Shown piece by piece: positions 23,100 to 27,294 of a stretch of 64,000 nt of DNA. Origin of the DNA: Bacilli bacterium. GTDB lineage: Bacteria; Bacillota_I; Bacilli_A; RFN20; CAG-826. The DNA is taken from positions 124,001-188,000 of the forward strand of contig JAKSVB010000001.1 of NCBI GenBank assembly GCA_024408335.1, read 5' to 3'. The translations under genes and the position numbers were made by a program. How positions within the stretch are numbered: the first letter of the stretch is position 1; each line of letters begins with the position of its first letter. The notes below the pieces were generated by a model. It did no database searches. It worked only from the letters and a program-made list of their open reading frames with translations, and was not told the origin of the DNA.

Positions 23100-23717
23100 T
23101 TATCCAATGACGTTGAGTCCCTCTAAGAGAAGCAAGACGCCTAACGTCACTAGAACTACACCGCCAAGAATGTTCGTTGCCTCTGATTTCCCTTTGAGAA
23201 GCTTATTAATAAGCTTTCCACCAAAGAGACCTACAAGGGATATAGCGAATGTGACGACGGCGATGATGCCGAATGAAACAAACACTTCGTAACCTGCTGC
23301 TGTTTCTGGCAAGTGGATGAATGCTTTGATGGTTATGCCGATAGCGAAAGCGTCAATGCTATCTGCAATAGATTGAAGAACGATTGTCTTTAATGTGAGA
23401 GGTTTTGCCTCATCGTTCTCTTCGTCTTCTTTTTTAATAACGGCTTTGATGCCTTCGTAGATCATCTTTCCACCAATAAAAAGCAAAAGGCCAAAGCCAA
23501 TCCAATGGTCAACTTGATCGATCCATCTTGAGAAAGCGGCACCAAGAAGGAAGCCGATTAACGGGAAAAGTCCTTGGAATAAACCGAAAAACGCCGCAAT
23601 TAAAACGAATTTTCTCTTCTTCTCTTTTGCGTAGACAAGACCATCAACAATCGAAAGAGCGAGACAGTCCATAGCAAGCGCTACGCCGTATATAAGCGAA
23701 TATCCTATCCAGTTCAT
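23100..23717 (-). CDS. MntP/YtaF family manganese efflux pump-like protein
   Basis: This 205-residue membrane protein has six predicted helices and two half-repeats. The first carries MDCLALSIVDGL and the second DSIDAFAIGITIKAF, the paired Asp motifs of the MntP/DUF204 family, which exports Mn2+. An acidic loop (IKKEDEENDEA) separates the halves. AAGGAG precedes the ATG, and it starts 9 bp after the N-carbamoylputrescine amidase gene, so it is the last gene of the polyamine operon. No yybP-ykoY-type manganese leader is seen nearby. Whether it moves Mn2+ or another ion here is inferred from family only. Confidence 0.82.
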   Translation of the reverse strand: MNWIGYSLIYGVALAMDCLALSIVDGLVYAKEKKRKFVLIAAFFGLFQGLFPLIGFLLGAAFSRWIDQVDHWIGFGLLLFIGGKMIYEGIKAVIKKEDEENDEAKPLTLKTIVLQSIADSIDAFAIGITIKAFIHLPETAAGYEVFVSFGIIAVVTFAISLVGLFGGKLINKLLKGKSEATNILGGVVLVTLGVLLLLEGLNVIG

Positions 23718-23726
23718 CTTGTCTCC

Positions 23727-24593
23727 TTAATCATTAGAAGCGTCATGCTTGAGCAAATCTCCATAGAGATCTGTTCTTCTATCGCGGAAAACGCCCCACC
23801 CAATTCTCTCTTTTGCGATTTCGCCTAAATCGAATTCAGCAAATCTGAGGCCTTCTTCTTCGCGGTTCATTTCTTCAATGATTTCGCCATGTTGGTCAGC
23901 GATGAAAGATGAACCATAGAAAGTCATAGAAGAGTTGCCAAGGCTTTCTTCTCCGACTCTATTAGCTGCTAATAATGGCATTATGTTTGCGGCAGCGTGT
24001 CCTTTCATTGTATTTTGCCAATGTGTTTTGGAATCTTTTGGCAAAACAGGTTCAGAACCGATTGCGGTTGGGAACAAGAGAATCTCTGCTCCTTTTAAAG
24101 CAAGGATTCTAGCTGTCTCTGGGAACCATTGATCCCAGCAAATAGCAACGCCGATAGTTCCTGCTTGAGTCTTGAACGTCTTGAATCCGGTGTCTCCAGG
24201 TGTGAAATAGAATTTTTCTTCGTAGCATTCGCCGGTAGGAATGTGGCTCTTACGGTAAATATCTACGATGCTACCATCCTTATCGATGATGGCGATCGAA
24301 TTAAAATACACGTTTCCAGCTTTTTCAAAGAATGAGATTGGAAGGACGATATTATGTTCCTTCGCCATGGCTTGGAAGTGCTTTAAAGTCTTTGAATCGT
24401 TAGCAGGTTCTGCCTTGTCGAAGAAGTCATAATTCTCGATCTGGCAAAAGTAATATCCTTCAAAAAGTTCAGGTAATAAAAGCAAATCCGCGTGGTTTTT
24501 GCTGGCGTTTTTGATGCATTCATCAGCTTTTTCGATACATTTCTCGTAGTTATCGAACATTGAGAATTGCGCAATAGCCGCTTTGATTTTCAT
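23727..24593 (-). CDS. aguB: N-carbamoylputrescine amidase
   Basis: AguB hydrolyses N-carbamoylputrescine to putrescine, CO2 and ammonia. It is a nitrilase-superfamily enzyme with the Glu-Lys-Cys triad visible: Glu42 in LLPELFEGYYF, Lys115 in YRKSHIPTG and Cys152 in GVAICWDQWFPETAR. The TGECYEEKFYFTPGDTGFK segment is characteristic of AguB as opposed to other carbon-nitrogen hydrolases. The length of 288 residues is normal. It lies 2 bp after the gene for the fused decarboxylase/agmatine deiminase, which supplies its substrate, so the operon covers arginine to putrescine. Confidence 0.95.
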   Translation of the reverse strand: MKIKAAIAQFSMFDNYEKCIEKADECIKNASKNHADLLLLPELFEGYYFCQIENYDFFDKAEPANDSKTLKHFQAMAKEHNIVLPISFFEKAGNVYFNSIAIIDKDGSIVDIYRKSHIPTGECYEEKFYFTPGDTGFKTFKTQAGTIGVAICWDQWFPETARILALKGAEILLFPTAIGSEPVLPKDSKTHWQNTMKGHAAANIMPLLAANRVGEESLGNSSMTFYGSSFIADQHGEIIEEMNREEEGLRFAEFDLGEIAKERIGWGVFRDRRTDLYGDLLKHDASND

Positions 24594-24595
24594 AA

Positions 24596-27223
24596 CTATT
24601 CCTCCTTGCTTGGAATCTGCATTGTGATGCAGTGGATATTTCCTCCGCCCAATAAGACCTCATAAGAATTAACTTGATGGATCTCTTTGTCTGGGTAGAT
24701 CTTTTTCATGGTTTTTAACGCTAACTCGTCTTCCTTGATGCCGAAGGCTGGAAGGATGATGAAGTCCTTGCCCTGGTAATAGTTAACGTAAGAGGCTGCT
24801 AAGCGGCGACCGGCTTCTCTCTTTTCAATCGTCTCAGCGTTATTGATAAGCGATTTGCTTTCGTTCTCGCTCATATATAGCGGCTTCGAAGGAAGCATCA
24901 TCTTATGAATGATAAGTTGTCTTCCTTTAGCGTCTTTGTGCTTCTTTAAGGCTTTGAGAGCTTTCTGACAGTATTCGTATTGTGGGTCGTCTTTGTTATC
25001 GGTCCAGGCTAACAAAACTTCTCCAGGTCTAACAAACGAAAGCATGTTGTCAACGTGCTCGTTTGTCTCGTCTTCGTATATGCCGTTAGGGAGCCAGATG
25101 ATTGTTTCGACGCCGAGGTTTTCCTTAAGCGTTTCTTCGATCTCTGTCTTTGTGTATGTAGGATTACGTCCCTTTGATAAAAGACACGCTTCAGTTGTGA
25201 TTAATGTGCCTTCGCCATCTGTCGCTATTGATCCGCCTTCTAAAACGAAGTCTTGGAGATAATATGATGAGAGGTGAAGTTTCTTTGCGACCACGGAAGA
25301 AAGTTTATCGTCATCCTTCCAGTTTTTATAAAGGCCGTCAACAAGTCCTCCCCAAGCATTAAATCTGAAATCAACTGCTCTGATTCTCTTCTCGTTTCTG
25401 ACGAATAGCGGCATGTTGTCACGTGCCCAGGCATCGTTATAAGAAACTTTAAGAATCTCTATGTTCTCAAGGTTTTCGCATTTTGATGCGACTTTTTTAT
25501 AAATCTTTGGATGAACGCCGAGAATGACTTTTTCATGCTTGGCAATTGCTTTAGCAATCTCCAAATAGTTGTCTTGGGCAGGGACCGCTTTGTTTCTCCA
25601 CGTATCAAGACGATATGGCATAAGCATGAGGGTTGCTTCGTGCTTCTCGCCTTCGAACGGCAATGAATAACCATCATCAAGAGGGTTGGTCTTCTTGTTG
25701 AGATAGTAGTCATGAAGCTTCTTCTCGTAAACCGAATATCTTCTCCATGTGCTTGTATCAATTACTTCAAACCCATCATGGAATCCAGAAATGAGTTTAA
25801 CGCCGTTTTGCTTATGTTTTTCGAAGAATTTGACCCTGTTAATGAGGTCTTGGTTCCAAACTTCTCCCGGAACGATAAGAGGAATTCCAGGCGGGTACAT
25901 CATAACTTGTTCCTTGGAAATCTTTCCTTTCAGTTCTTCTAAAGGAAGGACAACGCCAGGTGCGTTAAAGGCAACACGAGGTCTAACGAGTTTGAAAGGG
26001 AATGATGTATCGAAGTGGTGATCTTTAGTGGTCTTATTCTTTTGGTAATGTTTCTTTGAGACGTCTTTAAGGGCTTCAACAAGCAAATCAACATGATGTT
26101 TGGTTGTGCCGATAGCGAAGATGCAAAGAATCTCGTGTGTTTCCGCTAACTCAACCTGAACTTTGTAGTCTTTTTGCAAAAGGAGGTATAACTCATAGCC
26201 ATCGATATCCATTTTATCTAGGCCAATAACAACCTTGCAGTCGTCATAGTTGAAAGCCCCACGAGCGATGAAGTGCTCTTTTCCTTTTGTTGAGAATCCA
26301 GGAATGGCATCAATCCTCTTTCTGGCCGATTCTGCAAGCGAATATGTGTCACGCATTGCTGCTTGCCCCTTCTTTGACGCCATAAAGGCTCTAGCGCCGT
26401 CTAAAGACGCCATAAGAAGCGTGGAAGGAGATGTTGAGTTAAGAATATTCAAAGAGATTTGGACTTCTTCCCTTGAGAACATACCTTCTTTTAGAAGAAG
26501 GGCGGAAGATTGCGTTAATGAACCAGCAGTTTTGTGGAACGAAACAGAAGCCATGTCTGCTCCAGCGTCCATTGCGGTCAAAGGTTGATTATCGAGATGG
26601 AAATAGAAGTGAGCGCCATGGGCCTCATCGACCAATACGGCCATCTGTTTGGAATGGGCAAATTCAACAAGCTCCTTAAGCTCGCCTACTGCACCAAAGT
26701 ACGTAGGGTTAATGACAAATATCGCTTTTGCGGATGGGTTTCTAGAAATTACTCGCTTCCAATCTTCGAGGGTTGGCTGGTTTGCGATCTCTAAATCGTT
26801 ATCGATTTGAGGCATAACATATACAGGGATTGCGCCAGAAATGGTTAAAGCGTTGATGACTGATTTGTGGATGTTTCTTGGGAGAATGATCTTTTCGCCA
26901 GCTTTAACAGCAGTCATTATCATCGCGATGATGCCACTTGATGTACCGTTAATTAAAAAGAACGAATGATCTGCGTTACAGACATCGGCAAGAAGCTCCA
27001 TCGATTCACGAAGGACTCCAACAGGTTTGGCCAAATAGTCAAGTCCAACCGGAGCGTTAACGTCTGTGACGAAAGCGTCATGCCCAATAACGTCGGCTGC
27101 TGGGTTATATGAATTGCCCATGTGGTGTCCTGGAACATCGAAAGGTGCAATGTCTTCTTGGGAGACGTAATCCTTAAGAGCAGATATGAATGGGGTCTTT
27201 TTTTGGTCAAATTTCATGTACAA
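24596..27223 (-). CDS. aguA: Fused Orn/Lys/Arg-family decarboxylase and agmatine deiminase
   Basis: A single 875-codon frame joins two enzymes. Residues 1-480 are a fold-type I PLP decarboxylase of the Orn/Lys/Arg group: PGHHMGN near the N-terminus, DEAHGAH (Asp199, His202), the PLP lysine Lys231 in SFHKTAGS, and the C-terminal domain with PRVAFNAPG and MMYPPGIPLIVPGE. Residues about 515-873 are a complete agmatine deiminase: WARDNMP, FNAWGG, LEGGSIATDGEGT, His723 in NEHVDN and the nucleophile Cys865 in GGGNIHCIT. As agmatine deiminase needs agmatine, the decarboxylase half is most likely arginine-specific (inference). The start may be TTG at 27223 (GAGGG 6 nt upstream) or ATG at 27217 (6 nt after a TATTAT box). 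Confidence 0.92.
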   Translation of the reverse strand: MYMKFDQKKTPFISALKDYVSQEDIAPFDVPGHHMGNSYNPAADVIGHDAFVTDVNAPVGLDYLAKPVGVLRESMELLADVCNADHSFFLINGTSSGIIAMIMTAVKAGEKIILPRNIHKSVINALTISGAIPVYVMPQIDNDLEIANQPTLEDWKRVISRNPSAKAIFVINPTYFGAVGELKELVEFAHSKQMAVLVDEAHGAHFYFHLDNQPLTAMDAGADMASVSFHKTAGSLTQSSALLLKEGMFSREEVQISLNILNSTSPSTLLMASLDGARAFMASKKGQAAMRDTYSLAESARKRIDAIPGFSTKGKEHFIARGAFNYDDCKVVIGLDKMDIDGYELYLLLQKDYKVQVELAETHEILCIFAIGTTKHHVDLLVEALKDVSKKHYQKNKTTKDHHFDTSFPFKLVRPRVAFNAPGVVLPLEELKGKISKEQVMMYPPGIPLIVPGEVWNQDLINRVKFFEKHKQNGVKLISGFHDGFEVIDTSTWRRYSVYEKKLHDYYLNKKTNPLDDGYSLPFEGEKHEATLMLMPYRLDTWRNKAVPAQDNYLEIAKAIAKHEKVILGVHPKIYKKVASKCENLENIEILKVSYNDAWARDNMPLFVRNEKRIRAVDFRFNAWGGLVDGLYKNWKDDDKLSSVVAKKLHLSSYYLQDFVLEGGSIATDGEGTLITTEACLLSKGRNPTYTKTEIEETLKENLGVETIIWLPNGIYEDETNEHVDNMLSFVRPGEVLLAWTDNKDDPQYEYCQKALKALKKHKDAKGRQLIIHKMMLPSKPLYMSENESKSLINNAETIEKREAGRRLAASYVNYYQGKDFIILPAFGIKEDELALKTMKKIYPDKEIHQVNSYEVLLGGGNIHCITMQIPSKEE

Positions 27224-27274: not shown

Positions 27275-27294
27275 ACCGCCCAATTTTGAGCGGT
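27275..27294 (-). terminator. Terminator of the GT2 glycosyltransferase gene
   Basis: On the minus strand ACCGC pairs with GCGGT around a 10-nt loop and is followed by a TTTTC run. It lies 8 bp beyond the gene's stop. Confidence 0.7.

Follow-up and report, generated by a model that had tools for sequence, protein, structure and literature searches.

The decarboxylase family considered here comprises arginine, ornithine and lysine enzymes. Fusions of polyamine biosynthetic enzymes as such are already known (PMC8503589, PMC10407285, PMC11107197), and the nearest described to the gene studied here is that of an ornithine decarboxylase with an arginase/agmatinase-like domain in Fusobacterium (PMC8503589). 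We have analysed a window of 64,000 nucleotides from a Bacilli bacterium (contig JAKSVB010000001.1), in which a decarboxylase of this family is fused to an agmatine deiminase (AguA). Both enzymes are well known singly, and in relatives their separate genes already overlap. A fusion of this enzyme pair was not found in the open-licence literature, nor did the first-pass annotation of the window know of one, and the fusion appears to be undescribed.

Two complete enzymes in one reading frame

The window gene is a SpeA-type PLP decarboxylase joined to a complete agmatine deiminase (Table 1). It is a single frame of 875 codons without internal stops, and its translation may start at a TTG (position 27223, with a ribosome site 6 nt upstream) or at an ATG (position 27217, 12 nt). 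The Pfam models OKR_DC_1 and OKR_DC_1_C match residues 10-316 (E 4e-68) and 424-472 of the decarboxylase half, and PAD_porph matches residues 521-871 of the deiminase half (E 2e-108). Residues 513-871 also score 452.1 bits against the NCBIfam agmatine deiminase model TIGR03380, for which the equivalog cut-off is 381.8, and they cover this model in full length (positions 2-356 of 357). The closest solved relatives of the second half are agmatine deiminases, and those of the first half are the short S. aureus protein 2x3l and winged decarboxylases. Compared with unfused relatives, in which the end of the decarboxylase gene overlaps the start of aguA, no linker has been added at the seam. A fusion of the Fusobacterium type was ruled out, as the C-terminal half is of the PAD_porph/AguA family and does not have an arginase/agmatinase fold.

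Table 1. Features of the fusion locus (window coordinates).
Feature	Position	Strand	Basis
Fusion gene, 875 aa (decarboxylase + agmatine deiminase)	24596..27223	minus	ORF and Pfam/NCBIfam matches
Ancestral-form AAT-fold (SpeA-type) decarboxylase half, residues 1-485	25769..27223	minus	Pfam and alignment to unfused orthologues
PLP lysine K231 (SFHKT, 228-232)	26531..26533	minus	invariant in 49 fusions
Seam, residues 486-512	25688..25768	minus	corresponds to overlapping decarboxylase end/aguA start in unfused relatives
Agmatine deiminase (AguA) half, residues 513-873	24605..25687	minus	TIGR03380 and structural match of model
AguA catalytic Asp602 (DAWARD)	25418..25420	minus	invariant in 49 fusions
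AguA catalytic Glu662 (LEGGS)	25238..25240	minus	invariant in 49 fusions
AguA catalytic His723 (TNEHVDN, 720-726)	25055..25057	minus	invariant in 49 fusions
AguA nucleophile Cys865 (GGGNIHC, 859-865)	24629..24631	minus	invariant in 49 fusions
aguB, N-carbamoylputrescine amidase, 288 aa, 2 bp downstream of fusion	23727..24593	minus	TIGR03381
aguB ribosome site AGGAGG within last codons of fusion	24601..24606	minus	sequence
Intrinsic-terminator-like hairpin upstream of fusion	27275..27294	minus	sequence

K231, E200 and H202 of the decarboxylase half and D602, E662, H723, D725 and C865 of the deiminase half are invariant in all 49 distinct fused sequences. We take the deiminase residues to be catalytic on the basis of established work on agmatine deiminases. 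D199 of the decarboxylase half is present in the window and invariant in an alignment of 17 fusions. For either half, dN/dS amounts to about 0.02-0.08 in 12 close pairs of fusions, and judged by these measures both halves are under purifying selection, with no decay of either. The predicted activity of the deiminase half is the hydrolysis of agmatine. The first-pass annotation was right in describing an uninterrupted frame for a PLP decarboxylase and a complete agmatine deiminase, in placing the PLP lysine, histidine and cysteine at residues 231, 723 and 865 of catalytically intact halves, and in finding aguB 2 bp downstream. As a separate observation, the residue before the catalytic histidine (window 25055-25060, residues 722-723) is a glutamate in 49 of 49 fusions (TNEHVDN). 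The aligned agmatine deiminases from the PDB have glycine at this position (TNGHVDD/N), and glutamate is also found in many free AguA proteins of Bacilli.

The fusion is shared by a lineage of gut and rumen Bacilli

A search for the same domain architecture in other genomes detected the full-length fused frame in 68 of the 279 genomes of the order to which the window belongs. The carriers belong to seven genera of one family (g1, g21, g23, g30, g31, g32 and g48 of f1), apart from one genome that was assigned to family f5, and two further carriers (G417 and G476) belong to family f23, which is listed as of the same class. The fusion is therefore present in at least 70 species-level genomes of a gut/rumen Bacilli lineage. 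An independent collection of public metagenome-assembled genomes, scanned with one genome per species, yielded 18 related loci, and the complete ones are 58-73% identical throughout their length. Of these loci, 17 keep both halves in the same frame through the seam. In the 18th (L018) the seam is also read through, while the frame breaks within the deiminase part near the contig end.

An assembly join or a frameshift error could in principle have merged two genes, all the more so as the gene arrangement in relatives is just one frameshift short of the fusion. The probability of such an artefact is, however, negligible: the fusion is full length in the separate genomes counted above, the genes flanking it are common to close relatives, and one of the carriers is a single-contig, 99%-complete genome (G028, locus L064). 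No stop or frameshift interrupts the seam in independent genomes, and because they share this seam, an assembly join at positions 25700-25760 is excluded in practice. The view that the two families are normally separate proteins holds for the majority of Bacilli; the fusion, however, is stable across a whole lineage rather than a curiosity of a single genome. The fusion in the f5 genome (L062 of G069) is of the f1 type and 58% identical, and both of its halves fall within the f1 clade, a placement that may reflect either a transfer or a mis-binned contig.

Unfused relatives and the origin of the fusion

The genes for the decarboxylase, AguA and AguB are separate and consecutive in two groups, genus g56 of family f3 and family f27. 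In all seven of these unfused loci aguA, read in the +1 frame, overlaps the end of the decarboxylase gene by 8 or 23 nt, and in most overlaps a GGAGG site lies inside the decarboxylase gene. Fused and unfused forms are about 50% identical.

In trees of each half the fused f1 sequences group together, near the operon forms. The approximately unbiased (AU) test did not reject a single clade of fusions for either half (p-values of 0.57 for the decarboxylase and 0.13 for the deiminase), and parsimony on the free trees gave two changes of fusion state. The fusion in f23 may thus have arisen separately, been acquired by transfer, or go back to a single event that was followed by fission. Taken together, the trees and parsimony suggest that gene overlap preceded fusion. 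We infer from this a direction and a mode for the fusion event, in which the stop between the adjacent decarboxylase and aguA genes would have been lost through a frameshift within their overlap of 8-23 nt; a frameshift at this place gives the seam as it is found in the fusions. Likely intermediates of this evolution have been preserved: some relatives have the overlapping pair, the window lineage has the fusion, and in other genomes the slot after the decarboxylase is occupied by agmatinase.

A free agmatine deiminase might also be made from the fusion gene through an internal translation start. Of 60 fetched fusion loci, some of which are repeats of one genome, 7 indeed have a start codon and a stretch resembling a ribosome site near the seam. 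At the seam of the window, no candidate for an internal start was found and the GGAGG of most unfused overlaps is missing, which makes this additional product very improbable.

The operon with aguB

The aguB gene adjoins the fusion in every locus whose contig extends far enough. Its product matches TIGR03381 with an E-value of 1e-122 and 408.6 bits, slightly below the cut-off of 410.25. The ribosome site of aguB lies within the fusion gene (Table 1), and translation of AguB is probably coupled to that of the fusion. The terminator-like hairpin upstream of the fusion gene suggests that the operon begins with this gene. On the other side of aguB, a gene for a manganese-efflux-pump-like protein (PF02659; window 23100-23717, minus strand) starts after 9 bp. 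Several relatives, but not all, have a PF02659 gene in this position or close to it.

The substrate of the decarboxylase half

The first-pass annotation had assigned arginine to the decarboxylase half because of the enzyme to which it is fused. The genome context strengthens this assignment, whereas the partner alone, as detailed below, is no proof of it. Outside the fusions, the orthologous decarboxylase gene is usually followed by a gene for agmatinase: speB comes directly after it in 17 fetched loci of the class, and aguA in others. Of 23 genomes with this decarboxylase, which are related and therefore count as fewer than 23 independent observations, 16 have AguA without agmatinase, 7 have agmatinase without AguA, and none has both; several AguA/agmatinase switches are involved. 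In the genome of the window neither a second AAT-fold decarboxylase match nor an agmatinase was found, and no decarboxylase of the alanine-racemase fold scored above the cut-off.

In the tree, the decarboxylase half is separate from the tmk-linked YaaO paralogues and clusters with decarboxylases that are linked to speB or aguA. An orthologue of YaaO was ruled out by this grouping and by the absence of a tmk neighbour, since a motif search of the fetched loci revealed no tmk-like gene next to the orthologous decarboxylases. The clade is also distinct from the SpeA of B. velezensis, a reference identified by its gene neighbourhood and not by an assay of that protein, and from the ornithine decarboxylase of Fusobacterium (F. 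vincentii, 783 aa), identified by species and length and not by assay. As the clade is apart from both references, the tree alone leaves the substrate unfixed.

Another decarboxylase, SP_0916 of S. pneumoniae, is presumably a member of the same family. This enzyme prefers arginine 24-83 fold (PMC7531197). On the other hand, in C. botulinum the decarboxylase found alongside AguA and AguB acts on ornithine (PMC8503589), so that the partner alone does not prove the substrate. The decarboxylase half might accordingly act mainly on ornithine or lysine while the deiminase half takes imported agmatine, in which case the fusion would provide shared expression instead of consecutive steps. Besides the C. 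botulinum enzyme, the repeated substrate switches among ancestral-form decarboxylases and the Fusobacterium fusion of an ornithine decarboxylase with an inactive arginase (PMC8503589) would fit this possibility. It is nevertheless quite unlikely in view of the next-gene pairing with agmatinase or aguA in many families, the mutual substitution of AguA and agmatinase in 23 of 23 genomes, and the retention of the deiminase residues in 49 of 49 sequences. The decarboxylase half thus likely acts on arginine, a prediction that is well supported by genome context. Such a genome-based argument is of value for a family of decarboxylases in which the substrate is difficult to annotate.

Two other arrangements of the decarboxylase gene were observed. 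In other families of the order (loci L056, L058, L095, L157 and L159-L161) it lies directly after metK, and this adjacency suggests a methionine/polyamine operon. In genera g20 and g38 of the same family (loci L054, L053 and L066-L068) a lone decarboxylase gene is located beside a phosphoesterase-like gene, and agmatinase is encoded elsewhere in the genome.

A putative route from arginine to putrescine

The fusion protein is very probably a bifunctional arginine decarboxylase-agmatine deiminase that supplies N-carbamoylputrescine to AguB. The N-terminal PLP half would convert L-arginine to agmatine, the C-terminal half with its Cys/His/Glu/Asp residues would convert agmatine to N-carbamoylputrescine and ammonia, and AguB would release putrescine, CO2 and ammonia from N-carbamoylputrescine. 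We infer both the preference for arginine and the presence of the two activities in one protein from sequence comparisons.

AdoMet decarboxylase was found in none of the 11 fused genomes checked for it, and putrescine may therefore be the end product there. Spermine_synth is matched only partially in fused genomes, by sequences that resemble other methyltransferases. In a genome of the same family that has AguA and AguB without such a decarboxylase (G272), a 275-aa ORF with two AdoMet-decarboxylase-like stretches (L183:2912-3739) resembles the SpeD tandem fusions described in PMC10407285 and may be the source of agmatine in that organism.

The benefit of the fusion is probably a fixed 1:1 expression of both enzymes, combined with the removal of agmatine beside its producer, although this is conjecture. 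Product inhibition in ancestral-form decarboxylases is reported to hit mainly the preferred substrate (PMC8503589), and we conjecture that a consumer of agmatine tied to its producer could relieve such inhibition. As an addition to the bifunctional enzyme proposed here, agmatine might be passed directly between the two active sites, so that free agmatine never accumulates. The first-pass annotation had considered such channelling, and it would be in keeping with consecutive steps in one chain and with a YPPG-to-PFEG distance of 76-79 residues across the seam in all fusions measured. However, conservation of the seam can be inherited, and agmatine is small and diffusible. A structure predicted from the alignment of 17 fused sequences (mean pLDDT of 64 overall) was good for the deiminase half, with a TM-score of 0.92 against 2jer (target length) and of 0.91-0.92 over 2jer and 3h7c. 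The decarboxylase half of this model was unusable, which makes it impossible to place the two active sites relative to each other and leaves the model too weak to lend structural support to channelling. Direct transfer is therefore doubtful. The same applies to a bolder version of the proposal, which we regard as unlikely: an obligate two-step enzyme without a free agmatine pool, in which agmatine would be handed over or used before it inhibits the decarboxylase, and which would have been fused either twice, independently in f1 and f23, or once with subsequent spread.

With this fusion, polyamine biosynthesis gains a pairing of enzymes that is apparently undescribed. At an identity of about 50%, the fused and unfused proteins offer a natural experiment on whether joining neighbours in a pathway alters flux, product inhibition or the leakage of intermediates.

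Comparison with known systems

The window fusion shares its N-terminal family with the Fusobacterium protein of about 780 aa, and in both cases the C-terminal partner comes from the agmatine/arginine step. The Fusobacterium partner is, however, a catalytically dead ureohydrolase fold and the substrate is ornithine, whereas the window partner is an agmatine deiminase with all residues kept (PMC8503589). Fold, length and motifs of the decarboxylase half are shared with the ancestral-form SpeA of Bacillus, and the B. velezensis SpeA homologue is 41% identical, but the Bacillus enzyme is stand-alone and on another branch of the tree. The deiminase half matches AguA of E. faecalis (2jer) and Arabidopsis (3h7c) over the full length of the family, with the catalytic residues kept; these proteins are stand-alone and have a glycine before the catalytic histidine instead of the glutamate of the window protein. 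Neighbouring steps of the same pathway are also fused in the aguA-aguB fusion of Ca. Diapherotrites (PMC10407285), which joins steps 2 and 3, whereas the window fusion joins steps 1 and 2. Lastly, the AdoMet decarboxylase-aminopropyltransferase fusions of Pelagibacter (PMC11107197), both parts of which are functional, likewise combine polyamine enzymes that are consecutive in a pathway, but they involve other enzymes and another step.
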